A stretch of 50,935 nt of DNA from Sphingopyxis sp. LC363 (GTDB taxonomy: Bacteria; Pseudomonadota; Alphaproteobacteria; Sphingomonadales; Sphingomonadaceae), in assembly GCF_000756385.1 (NCBI RefSeq), contig NZ_JNFC01000025.1, positions 1-50,935 of the forward strand, read 5' to 3'. The notes under the pieces were generated by a model. It was not told where the DNA came from. It did no database searches and worked only from the letters and a program-made list of their open reading frames with translations. Of this stretch, positions 10,131-19,308 are shown piece after piece. How positions within the stretch are numbered: position 1 is the first letter of the stretch; every line of letters begins with the position of its first letter. Position numbers and translations under genes: made by a program.

Positions 10131-11678
10131 ATGATGAGCGAAAGCGCCGCCCAGCCCGCCGTTACCAGCCGCAGCGTCGCGCGCGGGCTCGGCACGACCG
10201 TGCTGGCCCGGCTCGGCGCGGTGGTCGAAATCGTCGCGCAGCCACTCTACGTCCTGATGTTCGGGCTCGCAGGTTACGGCCTCTACGCCGTGCTGTGGGC
10301 GGCGGTGAACCTGCTCGAGAATATCTTCGATCTCGGTATGACCAGCGCGATGCAGCGCACCGTCCCGCAATCGGCGAGCGGCGCCGACGCCGCGGCGGCG
10401 CTGCGCACGGCGATGGTCTTCGGCGTCGGGCCGTGCATCCTCGTCGCGGCGCTCGTCGCCGTCTTCGCCGCCGACCTCGCGCCGTTGCTCAACGTCGCGG
10501 CGAAGGACCGGGAGCTTGTCACCCCCGCGATCCGCATTTTCGTCTGGGCGCTGCCGCTCTGGGCCTTTGTCGAGATCGCGACCTCGGCATTGCGCGCACG
10601 CATGCTATTCGGTGCCGAGATACGCCTGCGGATCGTGTGGGAACAGGTGATGCGGCTGGTGTTCGCGGGGCTGTTCTTCGCGGGCGGCCTCGGCCTCAAG
10701 GGGCTGTTCATTGCGCACCTCTGTTCGCTTGGCATCACCGCGGCGCTCAGCATCCGGCTGCTCGCGCGCCACTACAGCTTCGCCGACCTGTGGCGCGGGC
10801 CGTGGGCGGGAGAGACCGCGCGCAACACCTTTTTGGCGGGCCTCTCGATCCTGCCATCGAACATCATCGCACGGCTGTTCGGCGACGCCCCGGCGCTGAT
10901 CCTCAACATGCTGCTTCCCGGTGCGGCGGGCGCCGCGGCCGCGGGCCTGTTCACGATCGCGCGCAAACTGTCGAGCGTCGTCCAGCTCGTCCGCATCGCC
11001 TTCACCTATGTGATGGCGCCGCTCGCCGCCAGCGCCGAGCGCGAGGACCGGCGCCAGGTCGCCGAGATCTATGCCTATGCGACGCGGCTGATCCTCGCGA
11101 TCGCGCTGCCGCTCGCTGCCGTGCTCGCGGCGGGCAGCGCATCGCTGCTCGGTCTGTTCGGGCACGGCGCGCAGGCGGCGCAAGCGGCGCTGGTGGTCCT
11201 GCTCTTCGCCCGCGCCGCCGAAGCGGTGCTCGGCATTTCGGCACCGGTGCTGCAAGTCGTCGCCGCCTTTCGGCACCAGCTCACCGCCAGCATCTTCGGC
11301 GTCGCCGTCGCGATCGGCGCGGGCTGGCTGATCGTCGGCCATCTCGACCCGCTGACGGGGGTGACGCTCGCGACCGCCCTCGGCCTCGTCGTGATGGCGG
11401 CGATCCCGATGGTGCAGCTGGCAATCACCGAAAAGCTTCACCCCTTCGACGCCCAATTTCCGGCGGTGGCACTGCGCGGCCTTGCGATCACCCTCGCAGC
11501 CGGCACCGCCGCGGTGCTCGCCGACCTTTTGCCCGACGCGCTTTCGCTGCCGCTGCTCGGGCTGATCGCCGCTGCGTCGATATGGGCAGCGCTACGCTTC
11601 GCCCTGCCGCTCGCCGATCGCATGTCGCTGGGCAAGACCGGCCGCAAGCTCCGGCTGTTCGAACCGGAAGCCGCATGA
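10131..11678 (+). CDS. polysaccharide/lipid flippase, MOP superfamily (Wzx-like)
   Basis: A 515-residue integral membrane protein with roughly 12-14 hydrophobic helices, starting about residue 20. The pattern [19 protein letters not shown] followed by [20 protein letters not shown] fits oligosaccharide flippases that move lipid-linked sugars across the inner membrane. AGGG precedes tandem ATGs at 10131 and 10134. It opens a five-gene plus-strand operon in which each following gene overlaps its neighbour (ATGA or TGATG). Its role is probably to export the product made by the downstream CDP-linked enzymes. The exact cargo is unknown. Confidence 0.82.
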
Positions 11679-12385
11679 CCGGCACGCCATCCCTCCCCCG
11701 CGTCGCGATCTACGATCTCGACCGGACCGTGCTGCGCACGCCGACTTTCACGCTGTTCCTGCTGTGGGCGGCGTGGCGCGAGGCGCCTTGGCGCGTGCTG
11801 CTGCTGCCCGCGCTCGCCGCGCTGATGATCGGTCATGCGCTGCGCCTTTACGGGCGCGACCGGTTCAAGCCCGCCGCCATTCGCCTGATGCTGGGCAATA
11901 GCATCGCACCCGCGCGCGCCGAAACGCTCGCCGCCGCCTTCGCCGCGTGGCGCATTCCGCGCGACGTCCCGCCGGGCGCCGCCGCGTGCATCGCGCGCGA
12001 CCGGGCCGAGGGCTATCGGCTGCTGATGGCCACAGCCGCCCCCGAATTCTACGCCGGTGCGATCGCCGAGGCACTCGGCTTCGACGCCATCGTCGCCTCG
12101 CGCCACCGGCGCGACGATGCGGGCCACTGGCTGCCCCTGCTGGACGGGTCCAATTGTTACGGCCAAGAAAAGGCGCGGCGCGTCAGTGAATGGCTTGCCG
12201 CGAACGCCCCGGGCGGCACGGCGCATATTCGCGCCTATTCGGACCATCTCAGCGACGCCCCGACCTTTGCGCTGGCCGGTGAGGCGTGGCTGATCGGGCG
12301 CGGCGACAAATATGTCCGGCTGGCCGCGAAGCATGGCTGGCGCGCCGCCGATTTCGAGGACGCCGCGGTGGCCGAGCCCCATTGA
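11675..12385 (+). CDS. HAD-superfamily (subfamily IB) phosphatase
   Basis: 236 residues. VAIYDLDRTVLRTPTF gives the DxDxT nucleophile motif with D15-D17, and MATAAPEFYAGAIAEALGFD gives motif II. AYSDHLSDAPTF gives the SDxxxD acidic motif IV, and EKARRV may supply the lysine of motif III. HAD-IB enzymes include phosphoserine and phosphatidylglycerophosphate-type phosphatases. Its position between a flippase and two CDP-alcohol enzymes suggests removal of a phosphate from a phospho-intermediate of that pathway. The ATG overlaps the flippase stop (ATGA). Confidence 0.85.
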   Translation: MTGTPSLPRVAIYDLDRTVLRTPTFTLFLLWAAWREAPWRVLLLPALAALMIGHALRLYGRDRFKPAAIRLMLGNSIAPARAETLAAAFAAWRIPRDVPPGAAACIARDRAEGYRLLMATAAPEFYAGAIAEALGFDAIVASRHRRDDAGHWLPLLDGSNCYGQEKARRVSEWLAANAPGGTAHIRAYSDHLSDAPTFALAGEAWLIGRGDKYVRLAAKHGWRAADFEDAAVAEPH

Positions 12386-13524
12386 TGCGCATCCTGTTCC
12401 TCTTCATCGGCGAGCCGCATCATGTGTTCCATGCGCTGCCCATCGCGGCGGAGATGGCGGCCGCGGGGCAAGCCATCGACGTCGCCGTCGCGAGCGCGGA
12501 CCATCTGCGGATGGTCGAACAGGTCGCGCTTGCCTATCCGGGCTTCGCACCAAGCGTCACCCTGCTCGGCCAGAAGGGATTGGCCCGCTGGCTCCGCGAC
12601 AAGGGGTTCTTCCGCAATCCGCGCCTGCCCATGCTGCTCGATGCCCTGCCCTTTCTGCGGCAGTTCGATGCGATCGTCGTGCCCGAGCGCACGACCACGT
12701 CGATCCGGCATTTCCTGCGGCGGGGGACGCGGCTGATCTTTACGCCGCACGGGGCGGGCGACCGGGCGATTACCTTCGATCTGCGCGACCGATATTTCGA
12801 TTTTGCGCTCGTGGCCGGCGAAAAGAGCGAACGGCGGATGCTCGACGCCGGGACGATCCGGCCGGGTCGTTATGCGGTGAACGGCTATGTGAAGCTCGAT
12901 CTGATGCCGGGGTTGCAGGCGGCGCGCGAGCCATTGTTCGCCAATGGCCGGCAGACGGTCCTTTACGCCCCCCATTTCAAGCGCGAGCTGTCGTCGTGGG
13001 AGCGCTTCGGCCGTGACATCATCGCCTGGTTCGCGGGTCAGGATCGCTACAATCTCGTCGTCGCGCCGCATGTGCGCCTGTTCGCCGAAGCGAGCGACGC
13101 CGAGCGCGCGGCGGTAACGAAGCTGGCGGTGCCGGGCGAGATCCTGATCGACCTCGCGTCCGACCGCCTGTTCGACATGAGCTATACGAGCGGCACCGAC
13201 ATCTACCTCGGCGATGTCAGCAGCCAGGTTTACGAGTTTCTCGCCACGCCGCGCCCGTGCGTCTTCCTCAACGCGCATGAGGTCGATTGGACCGGCGATC
13301 CCGATTATCTCTTCTGGACGCTCGGCGACGTCGTGGACGATCTCGCTGACTTGCCCGGCGCGCTCGAACGGGCGCCCGCGCGCCATCCGCTTTATGCCGA
13401 TGCCCAGCGCGAAAGGCTGGCCGAATCGATCGGCGGCAATCCGGCGGGCGCGGCGCGGCGCGGCGCCGAAGCGATCCTCGGCTTTCTTGCAAAGAACGCC
13501 GGGCAGGATAAGAGCGGCGGATGA
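12385..13524 (+). CDS. CDP-glycerol glycerophosphotransferase-like protein
   Basis: A 379-residue cytosolic protein with a two-lobed GT-B look. FTPHGAGDRAITFD matches the PHG loop and DIYLGDVSSQVYEFL the D-SS-x-x-EF loop of TagB/TagF-type enzymes. Those enzymes transfer glycerol-phosphate or ribitol-phosphate from CDP-polyol to a lipid or polymer acceptor. It is shorter than TagF and lacks an obvious membrane helix. The start at 12385 shares a base with the HAD stop (TGATG). With the neighbouring CDP-alcohol phosphotransferase, it points to a phosphodiester-containing surface product; the donor is unknown. Confidence 0.72.
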   Translation: MRILFLFIGEPHHVFHALPIAAEMAAAGQAIDVAVASADHLRMVEQVALAYPGFAPSVTLLGQKGLARWLRDKGFFRNPRLPMLLDALPFLRQFDAIVVPERTTTSIRHFLRRGTRLIFTPHGAGDRAITFDLRDRYFDFALVAGEKSERRMLDAGTIRPGRYAVNGYVKLDLMPGLQAAREPLFANGRQTVLYAPHFKRELSSWERFGRDIIAWFAGQDRYNLVVAPHVRLFAEASDAERAAVTKLAVPGEILIDLASDRLFDMSYTSGTDIYLGDVSSQVYEFLATPRPCVFLNAHEVDWTGDPDYLFWTLGDVVDDLADLPGALERAPARHPLYADAQRERLAESIGGNPAGAARRGAEAILGFLAKNAGQDKSGG

Positions 13525-14618
13525 CCGACGCCAACCCTCTGCCCGCGCTGACCCCGATCGGCGAAAATTCGACGCCGCTGTGGGGCATGACCAATGCCGA
13601 ACGGCTGCGGCGGCTGGCGCGCGCGGAAGGCCTGCCCGAAACGTCGACGACGGCACGGCTTTACGTCAATCTCGACTATGTCTTCGATCCGGTGTGGCTC
13701 CGCCATATTCTGACGCTGCCCGGAACGGTGGTGATGGACGGCGGCGACCTCGTGATGGCGCATCTGACCGGCGGCATGACCCCGGCCGATATCGCGCAGC
13801 ATCGCGGCGCACTGACCGTCATCGACTATCGGGACAATCCGCAAATCTACAACCGTCAGCTCCGCAAGCTCGACTGCCCCTTCATCCAGCGGCTGACGCC
13901 CGAAACGCGGCGCGCGATCGAACGGAAAAGCTATTTCGGCGCATACAAGGGCGTCACCGACGCGCTGACCAAATATCTGTGGCCCGAGCTCGCTTTATGG
14001 CTGACGCGCGGCGCCGCGAGCATCGGCATGACCCCGAATATGGTCACCGCGATCGGCGCGGCGCTCTGTGTCTATGCGACATATCTCTTCGCTTACGGCC
14101 ATTATTGGGCGGGGATGCTCGCGGGCTTCATCTTCATGGTGCTCGACACCGTCGACGGAAAGCTCGCGCGCTGCACGATCACCTCGTCGAAATGGGGCAA
14201 TGTCGCCGATCACGGCGTCGACCTGATCCATCCGCCCTTCTGGTGGTATTTCTGGGGCGTAGGCCTCGGCACCTGGGGCCTCGCGCTTTCGACGCAGACC
14301 TTCACCTGGGTGATGATCGCGGTCGTCGCGGGCTATGTCCTCCAGCGCGTGATCGAGGGGTTGTTCATCAAGGACTTCGGCATGGACATCCATGTCTGGC
14401 AAAGGTTCGACAGCCAGTTCCGCCTGATCACCGCGCGGCGTAACCCCAATTTCGCGATCCTCTTTTTCGCAACGCTGGCCGGGCGCCCCGACATCGGCCT
14501 GATCGCACTGGCCTGGTGGACGGTGATCTCGCTGGTCGTCCATGCGGTGCGGCTGGCGCAGGCCTATGCCGTCAAGCGCTCGGGCCGCCCGATCGTCAGC
14601 TGGATGGAAGCAGCATGA
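13521..14618 (+). CDS. CDP-alcohol phosphotransferase with N-terminal extension
   Basis: 365 residues. The C-terminal ~210 residues form a membrane CDP-alcohol phosphatidyltransferase domain. Its signature D-x2-D-G-x2-A-R-x8-G-x3-D-x3-D is complete, from VLDTVDGKLAR through GNVADHGVD, with about six hydrophobic helices. The first ~150 residues (with LWGMTNAERLRRLA, YVFDPVWLRHIL and MDGGDLVMAHL) are soluble, resemble nothing I can name, and lack a nucleotidyltransferase GxGTRL motif. The fusion recalls bifunctional inositol-phosphate cytidylyltransferase/DIPP synthase, but here nucleotidyltransferases are encoded separately at 15031-16586. It overlaps the preceding stop by 4 bp. Confidence 0.85.
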   Translation: MTDANPLPALTPIGENSTPLWGMTNAERLRRLARAEGLPETSTTARLYVNLDYVFDPVWLRHILTLPGTVVMDGGDLVMAHLTGGMTPADIAQHRGALTVIDYRDNPQIYNRQLRKLDCPFIQRLTPETRRAIERKSYFGAYKGVTDALTKYLWPELALWLTRGAASIGMTPNMVTAIGAALCVYATYLFAYGHYWAGMLAGFIFMVLDTVDGKLARCTITSSKWGNVADHGVDLIHPPFWWYFWGVGLGTWGLALSTQTFTWVMIAVVAGYVLQRVIEGLFIKDFGMDIHVWQRFDSQFRLITARRNPNFAILFFATLAGRPDIGLIALAWWTVISLVVHAVRLAQAYAVKRSGRPIVSWMEAA

Positions 14619-15043
14619 ACGCAACGATCGAGAAATTCGGCCACCCCGCGACGCTGATCGCCGAATATGATCATTGGGTCGTGCTGCTCCGCCCCGCGCA
14701 GCCGACGCTTGGCGCATTGGTGCTGGCGGCAAAGTCCAACGCGACGGCGTTCGGCGACCTGCCTCCCGAAGCGCACGCCGAACTCAAGACCGCCACCGCC
14801 GCGATCGAGGCCGCGCTGAGCCACGCGGTCGGTTACGCGAAGATCAACTATCTGATGCTGATGATGGTCGACCCGCACGTCCATTTCCACGTCCTGCCGC
14901 GCTATGACGGCGAACGTTCGGGTGCGGGGCTGACGGTGGGGGACGCGGGCTGGCCCGGGCAACCCGACCTCGGACAAGCGATCAAGCTGGACGAAACGCA
15001 GATTGCCGCGCTCATCGGCTGGCTCAAACCCTATTTCGCGTAG
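14615..15043 (+). CDS. HIT-family hydrolase
   Basis: 142 residues. DPHVHFHVLPRYDGER contains the His-x-His-x-His histidine triad that gives nucleotidyl hydrolase or transferase activity. The N-terminal strand HWVVLLRPAQPTLGALVLAA is typical of the fold. Start ATG overlaps the phosphotransferase stop (ATGA). In an operon full of CDP-alcohol enzymes it may act on CDP-activated or dinucleotide intermediates, which is inference. Its final 13 bases overlap the 3' end of the minus-strand nucleotidyltransferase. Confidence 0.85.
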   Translation: MNATIEKFGHPATLIAEYDHWVVLLRPAQPTLGALVLAAKSNATAFGDLPPEAHAELKTATAAIEAALSHAVGYAKINYLMLMMVDPHVHFHVLPRYDGERSGAGLTVGDAGWPGQPDLGQAIKLDETQIAALIGWLKPYFA

Positions 15044-15795
15044 CGGCCTTCTTCGGCCCATTTCGCGGTGAGCGCGTCGGCGGCTTCGACGTCCTGCGGG
15101 AAGTCGACTTCCTGCCATTCGAGACCCTCGATCGACACGGTGCCGACTCGATTGCCCTTCGCGATGATGTCGATCGCACGCAGATACCAGCGTTCGACCC
15201 CGTCGGGGGTGCGCATCATCTGGTCGACCTGATTGCGAAAGATCGAGGGGCCGTCGCCGACGAAGGCGAGCATCCCGATCGACTCCGCATTGGTGTCGGG
15301 GGGCAGCAGCCTTTTGCCGATGTGGTGCAGGCGCCCCTCGGCGTCGCGATTCACCTTCATGTCGTCGTCGTCATAGTCGGGTTTGACGTCGACGGTGACG
15401 TTGATCGGCTCGTTCGCGCCTTCGATGAGCTTCGCGACGATCTGGTCCGAGACGATGGTGTCGCCGTTGAGGATGATGAAGTCGCGGTCCATCTCCTCGC
15501 GCGCGATCCAGCAGGTGCCGAGATTGTCGGCGACCTGAAAGAAGGGGTTGAACAGGGTACGGATGCGCGCACCGGTGTCGCGATAGAGCTGGAGCGCATG
15601 GTCCTCGACGCGCTCGGTGCGGAAGCCCGTCACGACGACGATGTCCTTGATCCCGTTCGCGACGAGCGCCGCGACCTGCCAGCTGATGAGGCTGCGGCCG
15701 TTGAACTCTATCAGGCATTTGGGAATGTCGCGCGTCAGCGGCAGCAGGCGCGAACCTTGCCCGGCCGACAGGATGATGGCTTTGTCGATGCTCAT
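15031..15795 (-). CDS. sugar/alcohol-phosphate nucleotidyltransferase
   Basis: 254 residues of the NTP-transferase fold. AIILSAGQGSRLLPLTRDIP followed by KCLIEFNGRSL is the GxGxRLxPLT...PK signature, and FIILNGDTIVSD gives the metal-binding aspartate. The size and the YDDDDMKVNRD region resemble small cytidylyltransferases for alcohol phosphates (LicC or inositol-1-phosphate type) more than glucose-1-phosphate enzymes. It may make the CDP-alcohol used by the convergent operon. The ATG overlaps the stop of the second nucleotidyltransferase (ATGA). Confidence 0.82.
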   Translation of the reverse strand: MSIDKAIILSAGQGSRLLPLTRDIPKCLIEFNGRSLISWQVAALVANGIKDIVVVTGFRTERVEDHALQLYRDTGARIRTLFNPFFQVADNLGTCWIAREEMDRDFIILNGDTIVSDQIVAKLIEGANEPINVTVDVKPDYDDDDMKVNRDAEGRLHHIGKRLLPPDTNAESIGMLAFVGDGPSIFRNQVDQMMRTPDGVERWYLRAIDIIAKGNRVGTVSIEGLEWQEVDFPQDVEAADALTAKWAEEGRYAK

Positions 15796-16586
15796 AGGGG
15801 CCGCCCTATAGCGTCTTGCCGCCGCGCGGCAAATATCGCTTCGATCAGTTCGATGTCGGCCGGCTTGTCCGCGTCGATGCACGCCTCGGGTTCGGACATC
15901 GGCACGACCCGTGCTTTGAGCCCAAAACGCAGCCCGGCGCGCGCGATCCCCTGCTGGATCGTGAACAGGCGAAGCAGCGCGCCGAGCAGCAGCCAGGGGC
16001 CGAAAGCGGCGACGATCTTGAGTCCCTTCTTGCGGTCGCGCTCGATCCGCCCCCAAAAATCGAGCAAGGGCAGCACGCGGCGACCACGCAGGCGGAACAT
16101 GTTCGCGCCCGACCACCAGCCGCCGCGGAATTTCAGCCAGGTGCGCTTCGACTGCGGATAGCGTGCGAGCAGCACCTCACGCTCGACCATCGCCACTGCA
16201 ACATCGCTTTCCTCGGCATCACGGAGAAACTCGGCGATCATCGTTGGCGTGAGCAAAACATTGTCGGCGGTGGTGACGAGCAGCGGATCATCGCCTGGCG
16301 GCAATGCGGCGGCAAGCGAGCTGCTGATCCCCTGCCCCGAATCGGCGAAATGCAGGTCGGCGAAATCCGCAAGGTCCGGCTCGGCGGCCAGTTCGGCGCT
16401 ATTCTGGGCCAAGATCGTGATCGGCCCGACGAACGGCGAGTTCCGGAGCGCGTCCACGACATGGACGAGCATCGGCCGGCCCGCGATCGACAGCAGCGCC
16501 TTGGTCGACACGCCGCTTCCCGAAAGCAACGGGTCGGGGCCGGGACGGCTGCCCGCGAGAACGATTGCGGGGATCGGCGCGCTCAC
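15792..16586 (-). CDS. MobA-like nucleotidyltransferase family protein
   Basis: 264 residues. It begins PAIVLAGSRPGPDPLL then STKALLSIAGRPMLVHVVDA, a nucleotidyltransferase nucleotide-binding start in which the usual GxG-R loop is altered. LLVTTADNVLLTP holds a DxN-like acidic metal site. It is probably an activating enzyme for a small phosphate, paired with the gene downstream. Residues ~195-215 (WLLLGALLRLFTIQQGIA) are hydrophobic, hinting at membrane contact. The start is GTG (16586), overlapping the hydrolase stop as GTGA. Confidence 0.72.
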   Translation of the reverse strand: MSAPIPAIVLAGSRPGPDPLLSGSGVSTKALLSIAGRPMLVHVVDALRNSPFVGPITILAQNSAELAAEPDLADFADLHFADSGQGISSSLAAALPPGDDPLLVTTADNVLLTPTMIAEFLRDAEESDVAVAMVEREVLLARYPQSKRTWLKFRGGWWSGANMFRLRGRRVLPLLDFWGRIERDRKKGLKIVAAFGPWLLLGALLRLFTIQQGIARAGLRFGLKARVVPMSEPEACIDADKPADIELIEAIFAARRQDAIGRPL

Positions 16587-17509
16587 TGCGCGGCCTCTGC
16601 CGCCGGCGCGATGCGGCGGCCCGTCACGCCGCGCAGGAAATCGGTGGCTTCGTCGAGCACCGGCCCGCGGCTCCTGAACGGCACGGCGAGCGCCATGACG
16701 ATGCCGGTATGCCCCATCCCGGGATAGATGCGCAAAGTCGCCGAACCGCCAGCGCGTTCGATCGCAGCGGCAAGGTTCTGGCTGTTGCGCGGGCGCACTA
16801 TATCATCCTCATCACCGGTCGCGAGCCACAAAGGCGGCGCGTCGCCGCGGGCGAAGTGAATCGGCTGCGTCTTCTCGATCGGCTTGACCTTTCCCATCGC
16901 CCTGTCACCGCGGCCGCCCTTTTCGAGCGGCAGGAAATCATAGGGCCCGGCAAGGCCCGCAACGCCGCGGATGATCGACGGGTCGCTCTTCGCGGCGCGC
17001 AGCCACGCCGGATCGAGCGCGAGCATCACGGCATTATAGGCCCCCGCCGAATGGCCCATCAGCGCGATCCGCTCGGGATCGCCGCCAAGCTTGGCGATAT
17101 GTTCATGCGTCCACGCGACCGCCGCCGCGCTGTCCTCGATAAAGTCGGGCCAATGCGCCTTGGGCACCAGCCGGTAATCGGGGGTCACCACGACAAAGCC
17201 CTGCCGCGCCAATGCCCGCCCGGCGAAGCCATAGCTGCCGCGCTCGCCGCTGTCCCAGCCGCCGCCGTAGAAGAAAACGACCACGGGGAACCGGTCGCCC
17301 TCCTTGAGGCTTTCGGGAGCCCAGATGTCGAGCGACTGGCGGGGTCCGCTGCCATAGGGTTGGTCGGCGAGCAAAAGCCGCGCGCCGTCGCCCTGTCCGA
17401 GCAGCCGGTCCGCCATGTTGAGCGACTTCGCGCCGCCCGCGACGATCATCTTGGCGCCGCCGCCGAACAGCAGCACGAGCAGCAGGACCACGAAGAGAAT
17501 CTTGATCAA
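16583..17509 (-). CDS. alpha/beta-hydrolase (carboxylesterase type) with N-terminal membrane anchor
   Basis: 308 residues. The N-terminus IKILFVVLLLVLLFGGGAK is a single hydrophobic anchor. VVFFYGGGWDSG is an oxyanion-hole HGGG-like motif, with Tyr replacing His. LMGHSAGAYNAV has the nucleophile serine, ATGDEDDIV the acid and YPGMGHTG the histidine. The start is TTG at 17509, supported by AGAGGA 7 nt upstream. It resembles BD-FAE/esterase-lipase proteins. It heads a three-gene operon with two nucleotidyltransferases, so it may hydrolyse an ester in the same pathway. Confidence 0.83.
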   Translation of the reverse strand: MIKILFVVLLLVLLFGGGAKMIVAGGAKSLNMADRLLGQGDGARLLLADQPYGSGPRQSLDIWAPESLKEGDRFPVVVFFYGGGWDSGERGSYGFAGRALARQGFVVVTPDYRLVPKAHWPDFIEDSAAAVAWTHEHIAKLGGDPERIALMGHSAGAYNAVMLALDPAWLRAAKSDPSIIRGVAGLAGPYDFLPLEKGGRGDRAMGKVKPIEKTQPIHFARGDAPPLWLATGDEDDIVRPRNSQNLAAAIERAGGSATLRIYPGMGHTGIVMALAVPFRSRGPVLDEATDFLRGVTGRRIAPAAEAAQ

Positions 17510-17629: not shown

Positions 17630-18463
17630 ATGACGACAGGAAACTTCACCCGCCCGGCTCTTGTCTGCAACAGCCAGAGCGGCAGTCATGATGACGCCGT
17701 CCTGGCCGAGATCGTCGAAAGCTGCCGCGCTGCGGGCGCACCGCTCGTCGCCGTCTTTGCGCTGCCCGACGACGAGATTCCCGATGCGGGCGAACTCGTC
17801 CGGCAAGGCATCGACCTGCTGCTCGTCTGGACCGGCGACGGGACGATCAACGCTGCGGCGACCGGGGCCGCAGGCTGGGATGGCGCTATCCTGCCGCTTC
17901 CCGGCGGGACGCTCAACCTTCTGTCGAAGAAACTGCACGGCGACCGGCCAGTGACCGAAATCCTGACGGACGCACTGCAGGGCAAGGCGCGGCGGCAACC
18001 GGTCCCCATGATCCGGTCCGATGACGGCGACGCCTTTATCACGATCGTCGCCGGCCCCGCGACGCAATGGGCCGAAGTGCGCGAAACGATGCGGCAGGAC
18101 GGGTTGATCGAAGCAAGCCGGTCGGCGCCCGACGCGCTCGACGCGATGATCAACGCCCCGGGGGTTGCAGTGGCTGGACACGGCCGGACCTATCCGGCGA
18201 TCATCCTTACCCCGACAGCGCAGGGCATCCGCGCCGACGGCATATTGACCGAGGGCACCGCCGACGTGCTGCGTCATGGCTTGGCCTGGCTCGGCGGCGA
18301 TTTTCGCGACGGGCCGAGCGAGGCAATCATCAGCGGCGAAACGATCATCCTTGAAAGCGGTGTGCCGATCAGCCTCGAATATGACGGCGAGCTCGGCGAA
18401 ACGCCCTCTCCCGCGCGCTTCGGGCTCGCCGCGAGCGCGGTGGACTTCGTCGCGACGGCATGA
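17630..18463 (+). CDS. diacylglycerol kinase catalytic-domain (LCB5-type) protein
   Basis: 277 residues. LVCNSQSGSHDD at the N-terminus, LLLVWTGDGTINAAATGAAG (GGDGT-type nucleotide loop, here TGDGT) and LPLPGGTLNLLSKKL are the hallmarks of the lipid-kinase fold. It probably phosphorylates a lipid hydroxyl, such as diacylglycerol or a sphingoid base; sphingomonads make sphingolipids, so the latter is worth considering. It is soluble and slightly short for the family. The metallophosphoesterase ATG overlaps its stop, so the two are coupled. It is divergent from the hydrolase operon across a 120-bp promoter region. Confidence 0.82.
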   Translation: MTTGNFTRPALVCNSQSGSHDDAVLAEIVESCRAAGAPLVAVFALPDDEIPDAGELVRQGIDLLLVWTGDGTINAAATGAAGWDGAILPLPGGTLNLLSKKLHGDRPVTEILTDALQGKARRQPVPMIRSDDGDAFITIVAGPATQWAEVRETMRQDGLIEASRSAPDALDAMINAPGVAVAGHGRTYPAIILTPTAQGIRADGILTEGTADVLRHGLAWLGGDFRDGPSEAIISGETIILESGVPISLEYDGELGETPSPARFGLAASAVDFVATA

Positions 18464-19308
18464 CCCGGCTCTTCCATATCAGCGACCTGCATTTCGGGCT
18501 CGAAGACCAGGCCGCACTCGCCTGGTTCGCCGATTGCGTGCGGCACGAAGGCCCCGATGCGGTGTTGATCACCGGCGACCTCACGATGCGCGCGCGCAGC
18601 CGCGAATTCGCCGCGGCCTGCGACTGGATCGGCGCGCTCGACGTGCCGGTGACGGTCGAAGTCGGCAATCACGACCTGCCCTATTTCAACCCCGTCGAAC
18701 GCTTCTTCTTCCCATATCGCCGCATTCGCGGGATCGAGCGGCTGGTCGAGCGTGAACTCGACCTTCCCGGTGTCGCCGTGGTGCCGTTGAAGACGACCGC
18801 GCGCGCCCAATGGCGGCTCGACTGGTCGAAGGGATGGGTGACCGACAAGGCGCTCGAAAAGACGCTCGCTGCCATCGAGACGCTGCCGCGCGGCACGACG
18901 GTGCTGGTCACCGCCCATCACCCGCTGGTCGAGGCCGGCACGAAGGGCCGCGCACTGACCCGCGGCGGCGAGCGCGCGCTCGCGGCCCTGGCGAAGCGCG
19001 GCGTGGCGGCTGTGCTGACCGGGCATGTTCACGATGCCTTCGACCTGAAAAAGACGACCGCTGCGGGTCCGATCCGCATGATCGGAGCGGGCACGCTGTC
19101 GCGGCGGATCCGATCGACCCCTCCTAGTTTCAACGACCTGACCGTCGAAGGCGCTTCAATCGACGTCCGCGTGCGCAATCTCGAGCATGTCCCGACCTGT
19201 GACATGCAGATCGGCGACGTGCCGCCCGACGCGCTGCCGCCGCGCGAACCCGGCGAACCGGTAGCCCCCGTCGCGGCGGTGCCGCCGGTCGATCCGCCAG
19301 TGCATTGA
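18460..19308 (+). CDS. calcineurin-like metallophosphoesterase
   Basis: 282 residues. LFHISDLHFG (D-x-H), ITGDLTMRAR (GD), VEVGNHDLPYFN (GNHD), VTAHHPLVEAG (H) and LTGHVHDAFD (GHxH) give the complete dimetal phosphoesterase set. No signal peptide, so cytoplasmic. It is translationally coupled (ATGA) to the lipid-kinase-like gene, suggesting opposed or sequential phosphorylation steps on one substrate. The C-terminal ~40 residues (PPDALPPREPGEPVAPV) are proline-rich and probably disordered. Confidence 0.88.
   Translation: MTRLFHISDLHFGLEDQAALAWFADCVRHEGPDAVLITGDLTMRARSREFAAACDWIGALDVPVTVEVGNHDLPYFNPVERFFFPYRRIRGIERLVERELDLPGVAVVPLKTTARAQWRLDWSKGWVTDKALEKTLAAIETLPRGTTVLVTAHHPLVEAGTKGRALTRGGERALAALAKRGVAAVLTGHVHDAFDLKKTTAAGPIRMIGAGTLSRRIRSTPPSFNDLTVEGASIDVRVRNLEHVPTCDMQIGDVPPDALPPREPGEPVAPVAAVPPVDPPVH

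Follow-up and report, generated by a model that had tools for sequence, protein, structure and literature searches.

The phosphosphingolipid pathway of Caulobacter, which leads to ceramide diphosphoglycerate (CPG2), has already been described (PMC11324152; PMC12275187; PMC13228409). According to the accessible parts of these papers, its genes form the cluster CC_1168-CC_1152 (PMC11324152), and CPG2 aids life without lipopolysaccharide and is a proposed polymyxin target (PMC12275187; PMC11324152). A ceramide phosphorylation activity was shown for CpgB, and CpgD converts cytidine triphosphate (CTP) and 2-phosphoglycerate to cytidine diphosphate (CDP)-glycerate in vitro. The second nucleotidyltransferase (CC_1153) is required for CPG2. 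The metallophosphoesterase CC_1158 is not essential, and another gene partly standing in for it had been suggested (PMC11324152). CC_1157 and CC_1167 were rated as probably unrelated to the pathway. Here, a 50,935-nucleotide contig of Sphingopyxis sp. LC363 (NZ_JNFC01000025.1, hereafter the window; contig C25 among the 73 that make up the 4.2 Mb genome) was analyzed. Its operon at 10131-17509 very probably encodes, judging from sequence comparison, the head-group half of a ceramide-phosphoglycerate (CPG/CPG2-type) phosphosphingolipid pathway, and the ceramide half is likely encoded on a different contig of this genome.

The reference cluster was that of Caulobacter vibrioides DSM 9893, found via a cpgD primer 20-mer printed in the accessible text of PMC12275187, which matches two records. 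Its gene order is TagB-like, flippase, AasR, CerR, AcpR, serine palmitoyltransferase (SPT), CpgC (family F43), CpgB, CpgA, metallophosphoesterase, HIT, LptF2, LptG2, CerS, second nucleotidyltransferase (NT2) and CpgD. The numbers CC_1167 to CC_1152 were assigned by counting back from CpgD (CC_1152), by order and not by locus tag. This count places the TagB-like gene at CC_1167 and the HIT gene at CC_1157; the published functions, as far as accessible, fit the other described places. Family models were used to check SPT, acyl ligase, LptF, LptG, kinase, phosphoesterase and HIT, whereas CerR, AcpR and CerS are named from their position and the published description.

The earlier note had described an overlapping plus-strand operon with genes converging on it from the minus strand, and all eight genes were found where it had placed them. 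The five plus-strand genes overlap each other by 1-4 bases. They encode a Wzx/MATE-like flippase (10131..11678; PF01943, 32.3 bits), a HAD-IB phosphatase (11675..12385; PF12710, 106.8 bits; TIGR01488 above cut-off), a TagB/TagF-like transferase (12385..13524), a CpgA-type CDP-alcohol phosphotransferase with an N-terminal domain (13521..14618; PF01066) and a HIT protein (14615..15043; PF01230, 24.3 bits). The minus strand carries a CpgD-type CTP:phosphoglycerate cytidylyltransferase (NT1, LicC-like; 15031..15795), a MobA/CofC-like nucleotidyltransferase (NT2, the CC_1153 counterpart; 15792..16586; PF12804, 55.1 bits; weak CofC match TIGR03552, 8.7e-5) and an alpha/beta hydrolase, which overlap by 4 bases and converge on the HIT gene with a 13-base overlap. 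The catalytic signatures are intact in the CDP-alcohol transferase (DxxDGxxAR-x8-GxxxDxxxD, starting at residue 209), the HIT protein (HVHFHVL) and the HAD protein (DLDRT). Among the matches listed, the nearest organism-named relatives of the TagB/F-like and CDP-alcohol proteins are from Sphingopyxis, at 91% identity.

Counterparts of five Caulobacter genes are present in the window: HIT (52.1% identity), CpgD (50.8%), CpgA (44.0%), TagB/F-like (41.7%) and NT2 (36.6% over 254 aligned residues, also matched by profile). For the window CpgA, Caulobacter CpgA is the only match at E<=0.001 in the Caulobacter genome, and the TagB/F-like and HIT genes correspond to those at the CC_1167 and CC_1157 places. 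In contrast to Caulobacter, the Sphingopyxis set is split over two loci, its nucleotidyltransferases converge from the minus strand, and its loci carry a HAD-IB gene, no Caulobacter-type metallophosphoesterase and a flippase of another family. The orthologues of Sphingomonas wittichii, an organism of the same order known here from PMC11324152 and not from its sequence, likewise include no CC_1158 orthologue and lie over several regions; a HAD replacement is not mentioned there in the accessible text (PMC11324152, section 9). The earlier note had proposed that CTP activation and CDP-alcohol transfer give a phosphodiester surface glycan or lipid that is then exported, an outline which, with a lipid as product, proved right. 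Its further proposal of an undescribed pathway was abandoned in view of the Caulobacter counterparts (PMC11324152; PMC12275187; PMC13228409, in their accessible parts).

The lipid carrier is most likely ceramide, supplied from a locus elsewhere in the genome. The single CpgC match of the genome lies on contig C7. In the region around it (L076), SPT scores above the NCBIfam cut-off, family models identify a CpgB-type kinase and LptF, and purpose-built profiles identify CpgC, LptG2 and CerS. Thus, types of SPT, CerS, CpgB, CpgC and LptF2/G2 known from the Caulobacter cluster occur within the same Sphingopyxis genome. Four same-genus genomes have CpgA and CpgC 73-82 kb apart on one contig, so C7 and C25 may be neighbors in the complete chromosome. 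A reading of CpgC as a Tam41-like cytidylyltransferase, prompted by the appearance of its sequence, was not adopted, as Pfam and a PDB sequence search gave nothing.

Both the lipid and the functions of the HIT, TagB/F-like, HAD and NT2 proteins are inferred here. SPT and CerS on C7 would form ceramide, CpgB would phosphorylate it, and CpgC would take the product towards ceramide phosphoglycerate. In the window, CpgD would make CDP-glycerate from CTP and 2-phosphoglycerate, and CpgA would transfer phosphoglycerate from it to the lipid with release of cytidine monophosphate. NT2 would contribute to CPG2 as in Caulobacter. The TagB/F-like protein may be a further CDP-polyol-type transferase, the HIT protein may handle a nucleotide intermediate or by-product, and the HAD-IB enzyme may act in place of the metallophosphoesterase CC_1158. 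The flippase is predicted to move the lipid across the membrane, and outward transport of the lipid would rely on this protein and on the LptF/LptG copies encoded on C7.

Conservation was followed in 196 Sphingomonadales genomes (order sample) and 289 genomes (class sample), with counts derived from profile searches and whole-genome searches. In the order sample, 48 of 196 genomes have a CDP-alcohol transferase match at E<=1e-10, and the 31 at E<=1e-60 were counted as CpgA; five intermediate matches (E 1e-33 to 1e-50) were set aside, and the 12 weakest matches (E 1e-11 to 1e-23) served as contrast. Of 36 CpgD matches, three weak ones (E 1e-21 to 1e-24) were excluded, leaving 33. Profiles were searched in 63 regions, i.e., 60 from other genomes (<=20 kb; 40 from order hits and 20 from 20 of 34 class genomes), the window, the C7 partner region and 33 kb of Caulobacter. 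The 60 regions were chosen for carrying a CDP-alcohol transferase or CpgC, and the genome-wide profile is therefore the less circular test. Another 20 regions were fetched around HIT or TagB matches away from CpgA.

Around the CDP-alcohol transferase, NT1, NT2, HAD, HIT, TagB/F-like and flippase genes recur in new orders, in several genomes together with a lipid kinase and CpgC. CpgA and CpgD types occur together in 21 of the 63 regions, accompanied by NT2 (19/21), HIT (16/21), flippase (14/21) and TagB/F-like genes (12/21). Genome-wide, CpgC is found in 132 genomes of the order sample, TagB/F-like in 59, CpgD in 33, CpgA in 31 (13 genera) and HIT in 28. These sets are nested: all 59 TagB/F-like genomes have CpgC, and all 31 CpgA genomes have both CpgD and CpgC. 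The 28 HIT genomes all have CpgD; 27 of them have CpgA at E<=1e-60, and the other (G105) has a weaker match. When the five intermediates are added, CpgA goes with CpgC in 34/36 genomes, with HIT in 28/36 and with TagB in 21/36. In contrast, 7 of the 12 genomes whose CDP-alcohol match is weak have no CpgC. In the class sample, CpgC occurs in 34 of 289 genomes and led to loci with SPT-, CerS- and LptF/LptG-like genes; CpgA occurs in 20, all with CpgC and 15 with HIT. The HIT link is looser across the class than in the order.

The head group can be narrowed down through CpgD, although the earlier note could not name it. Thirteen positions for CTP or phosphoglycerate contact were taken from the accessible parts of two CpgD papers, including the 2026 preprint PMC13228409. 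The window CpgD keeps 12 of them (G12, R16, K26, N90, T93, N110, G111, D112, M147, K161, S170 and W201). The thirteenth, T88, is alanine in the window; in Caulobacter CpgD, it contacts cytosine through its backbone. NT1-like relatives in loci with an inositol-phosphate synthase (L068, L070-L073) all (5/5) lose N90, N110, M147, S170 and W201. The other 20 aligned CpgD-type sequences keep most positions; many have serine in place of T93, and six (L044-L046, L060, L061, L066) differ at N90, S170 or W201. Since 12 of the 13 positions are kept in the window and five of these are lost in the inositol-locus relatives, phosphoglycerate is the best-supported head group, by CpgD orthology and residue conservation.

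These residues also bear on an inositol-type route, in which NT1 would activate inositol phosphate for the CDP-alcohol transferase to make di-myo-inositol phosphate or phosphatidylinositol, a comparison the earlier note had drawn. Both enzymes share a superfamily with the IPCT/DIPPS enzymes of di-myo-inositol phosphate synthesis and resemble these and PIP synthase, as judged by profile, by sequence and by fold; the transferase has the AF2299/PIP synthase fold. However, the NT1 contact residues follow CpgD and not the relatives beside inositol-phosphate synthase, and a search of the genome for an inositol-phosphate synthase gave no match with a single query run without a positive control. The inositol route was rejected on the CpgD residues, and we give it almost no credence; the comparison fits the different subfamily beside inositol-phosphate synthase, which lacks these residues. 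That subfamily was met in other Sphingomonadales (L068-L073), where CDP-alcohol transferases stand with a recurring member of the myo-inositol-1-phosphate synthase family (confirmed by Pfam in L069) and, in five of six loci, an NT1-like gene. This cluster probably serves an inositol phospholipid or DIP (di-myo-inositol phosphate)-type route.

A ceramide phospholipid of the same type could also carry a different CDP-activated acid or alcohol, resembling CPG without being CPG. The HAD, NT2 and TagB/F-like proteins differ from or add to the characterized Caulobacter steps, and CpgD varies at N90 and W201 in the related loci L044-L046. Nevertheless, the residues that the accessible text of PMC13228409 describes as contacting phosphoglycerate are retained in the window CpgD, and such a substitution is considered unlikely for the window. 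The loci L044-L046 themselves are without HIT, and a change of substrate is possible there. Separately, some sphingolipid clusters (L112-L114, L125) hold two CpgA-like transferases, suggesting an additional head-group step.

Returning to the phosphoglycerate pathway, the HIT and TagB/F-like proteins are probable parts of it, judging from their gene partners. In 17 of 28 order genomes, HIT and CpgA are at most 10 kb apart; in the other 11, HIT is further away or on another contig (in one of these, G023, CpgA sits on a contig of just 3.8 kb, too short to give a distance). CpgD is also located away from CpgA in nine CpgA genomes of one genus. Because HIT and CpgD are kept even where they are distant, their link with CpgA is more than adjacency. 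The reported cofitness of CC_1167 is 0.57 for spt and 0.54 for CC_1159, and Zymomonas is without CC_1159 and CC_1157 together (PMC11324152, accessible text). No published role for CC_1157 or CC_1167 was found in the accessible parts of the openly licensed literature, supplements excluded.

The TagB/F-like name rests on relatives and fold. The window protein has no Pfam match at E 0.01, PF04464 included; of 1671 relatives, 11 of the 120 listed carry PF04464. A PDB sequence search gave nothing useful. The protein has a GT-B fold like TagF, with about 13% identity in the structural alignment, and TagF and UDP-GlcNAc 2-epimerases are indistinguishable for it in VIA-align (Z within 1). The fold and the CDP-polyol logic recall wall teichoic acid synthesis by TagF/TarL; low identity, the absence of PF04464 and the Gram-negative sphingolipid context set the window protein apart. 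A capsule or teichoic-acid-like polyol-phosphate polymer, built by this protein from CDP-activated units on a lipid carrier and exported by the flippase, is one reading to consider. It is disfavored by the tie between epimerases and TagF and by the order sample, where the genomes with CpgA, CpgD, HIT or TagB all have CpgC. Moreover, the same genes adjoin SPT, CerS and LptF2/G2 in Caulobacter, and no polymer-export family besides the flippase was found among ten window proteins scanned. Such a polymer is highly unlikely.

The HAD-IB enzyme plausibly replaces the CC_1158 metallophosphoesterase of the ceramide-phosphoglycerate pathway. Among the 63 regions, 22 have HAD, 16 have the Caulobacter-type metallophosphoesterase, none has both and 25 have neither. 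The replacement is plausible at most, as this split largely tracks taxonomy and the window and three relatives carry a distant metallophosphoesterase (18460-19308). The latter was scored as a separate family; when it is counted with the Caulobacter type, four regions have both. It shows 30% identity to the Caulobacter enzyme (24% by tblastn) and was not taken as its orthologue, nor was the window flippase taken as that of the gene at the CC_1166 place (27%). By tblastn, the flippase is 33-36% identical to flippases of three sphingolipid loci (L109-L111).

Several observations weigh against the assignment of the operon to this pathway. In the Sphingopyxis genome, CerR and AasR were not found within the 20 kb C7 region and were not sought elsewhere. 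For CC_1158, profiles of the Caulobacter type gave no match in either of the two regions covered, the window and the C7 region. The window flippase does not belong to the Caulobacter family, and the NT2 match to Caulobacter is just 37%. Across genomes, the Fisher values (HIT-CpgD 4e-29; TagB-CpgC 2e-13) ignore relatedness. The scattering on which the earlier note would have given up its cluster was found in part: gene order is shuffled between genera, although much of the gene set is retained. Where HIT is distant from CpgA, no other gene of the set is nearby in seven of eight fetched regions, and the eighth has a partial CpgD-like piece. In the class sample, HIT is absent from 5 of 20 CpgA genomes, and 8 of 23 HIT genomes are without CpgA. 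The TagB/F-like gene is present in only 19 of the 31 CpgA genomes of the order sample, which ties it to CpgC rather than to CpgA. In L142, L143, L145, L147, L148 and L150, all from genomes with neither a CpgA nor a CpgD match, it accompanies NT2 and/or HAD, in some cases also a flippase. Furthermore, no CC_1167 orthologue is reported in Nitrosomonas, Azotobacter and Pseudomonas luteola, yet CPG2 is expected there (PMC11324152, section 9, in the accessible text).

A more specific role can be put forward tentatively. The TagF-fold protein (CC_1167 type) would work alongside CpgA as a CDP-glycerate transferase, with the CC_1157-type HIT protein as a dedicated CDP-glycerate enzyme, so that the head group would be finished in a teichoic-acid-like manner and the lipid would perhaps contain more or differently linked phosphoglycerate than CPG2. 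This remains the less probable course, because 12 of 31 CpgA genomes have no TagB/F-like gene, and neither do the three species named above from PMC11324152. If true, two genes set aside in Caulobacter would be working pathway parts.

The remaining genes are neighbors. The alpha/beta hydrolase (16583..17509, minus strand; PF20434/PF07859), which the earlier note counted as a cluster member, is probably a genus-level neighbor outside the pathway core: among the 63 regions, it matches at full strength (568-609 bits) only in the window and the same-genus regions L035-L037, with 318 bits in L058 and 25 in L127. Just past the cluster, a diacylglycerol-kinase-like lipid kinase (17630..18463, plus strand; PF00781) and the distant metallophosphoesterase overlap by 4 bases, and this pair follows the hydrolase only in the window and L035-L037. 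Owing to this narrow spread, a core role was rejected for all three. This kinase comes in addition to the CpgB-type gene on C7, and because of that gene it was not accepted as CpgB.

The pathway itself is already known; what is new is the argument drawn from the split island, together with the proposed HAD exchange and the two candidate members. Sphingomonadales head-group islands which lie apart from the ceramide genes offer a natural experiment separating head-group genes from mere neighbors. On this basis, the HIT and TagB/F-like proteins are nominated as members of the pathway, and the HAD-IB enzyme as the replacement of CC_1158.

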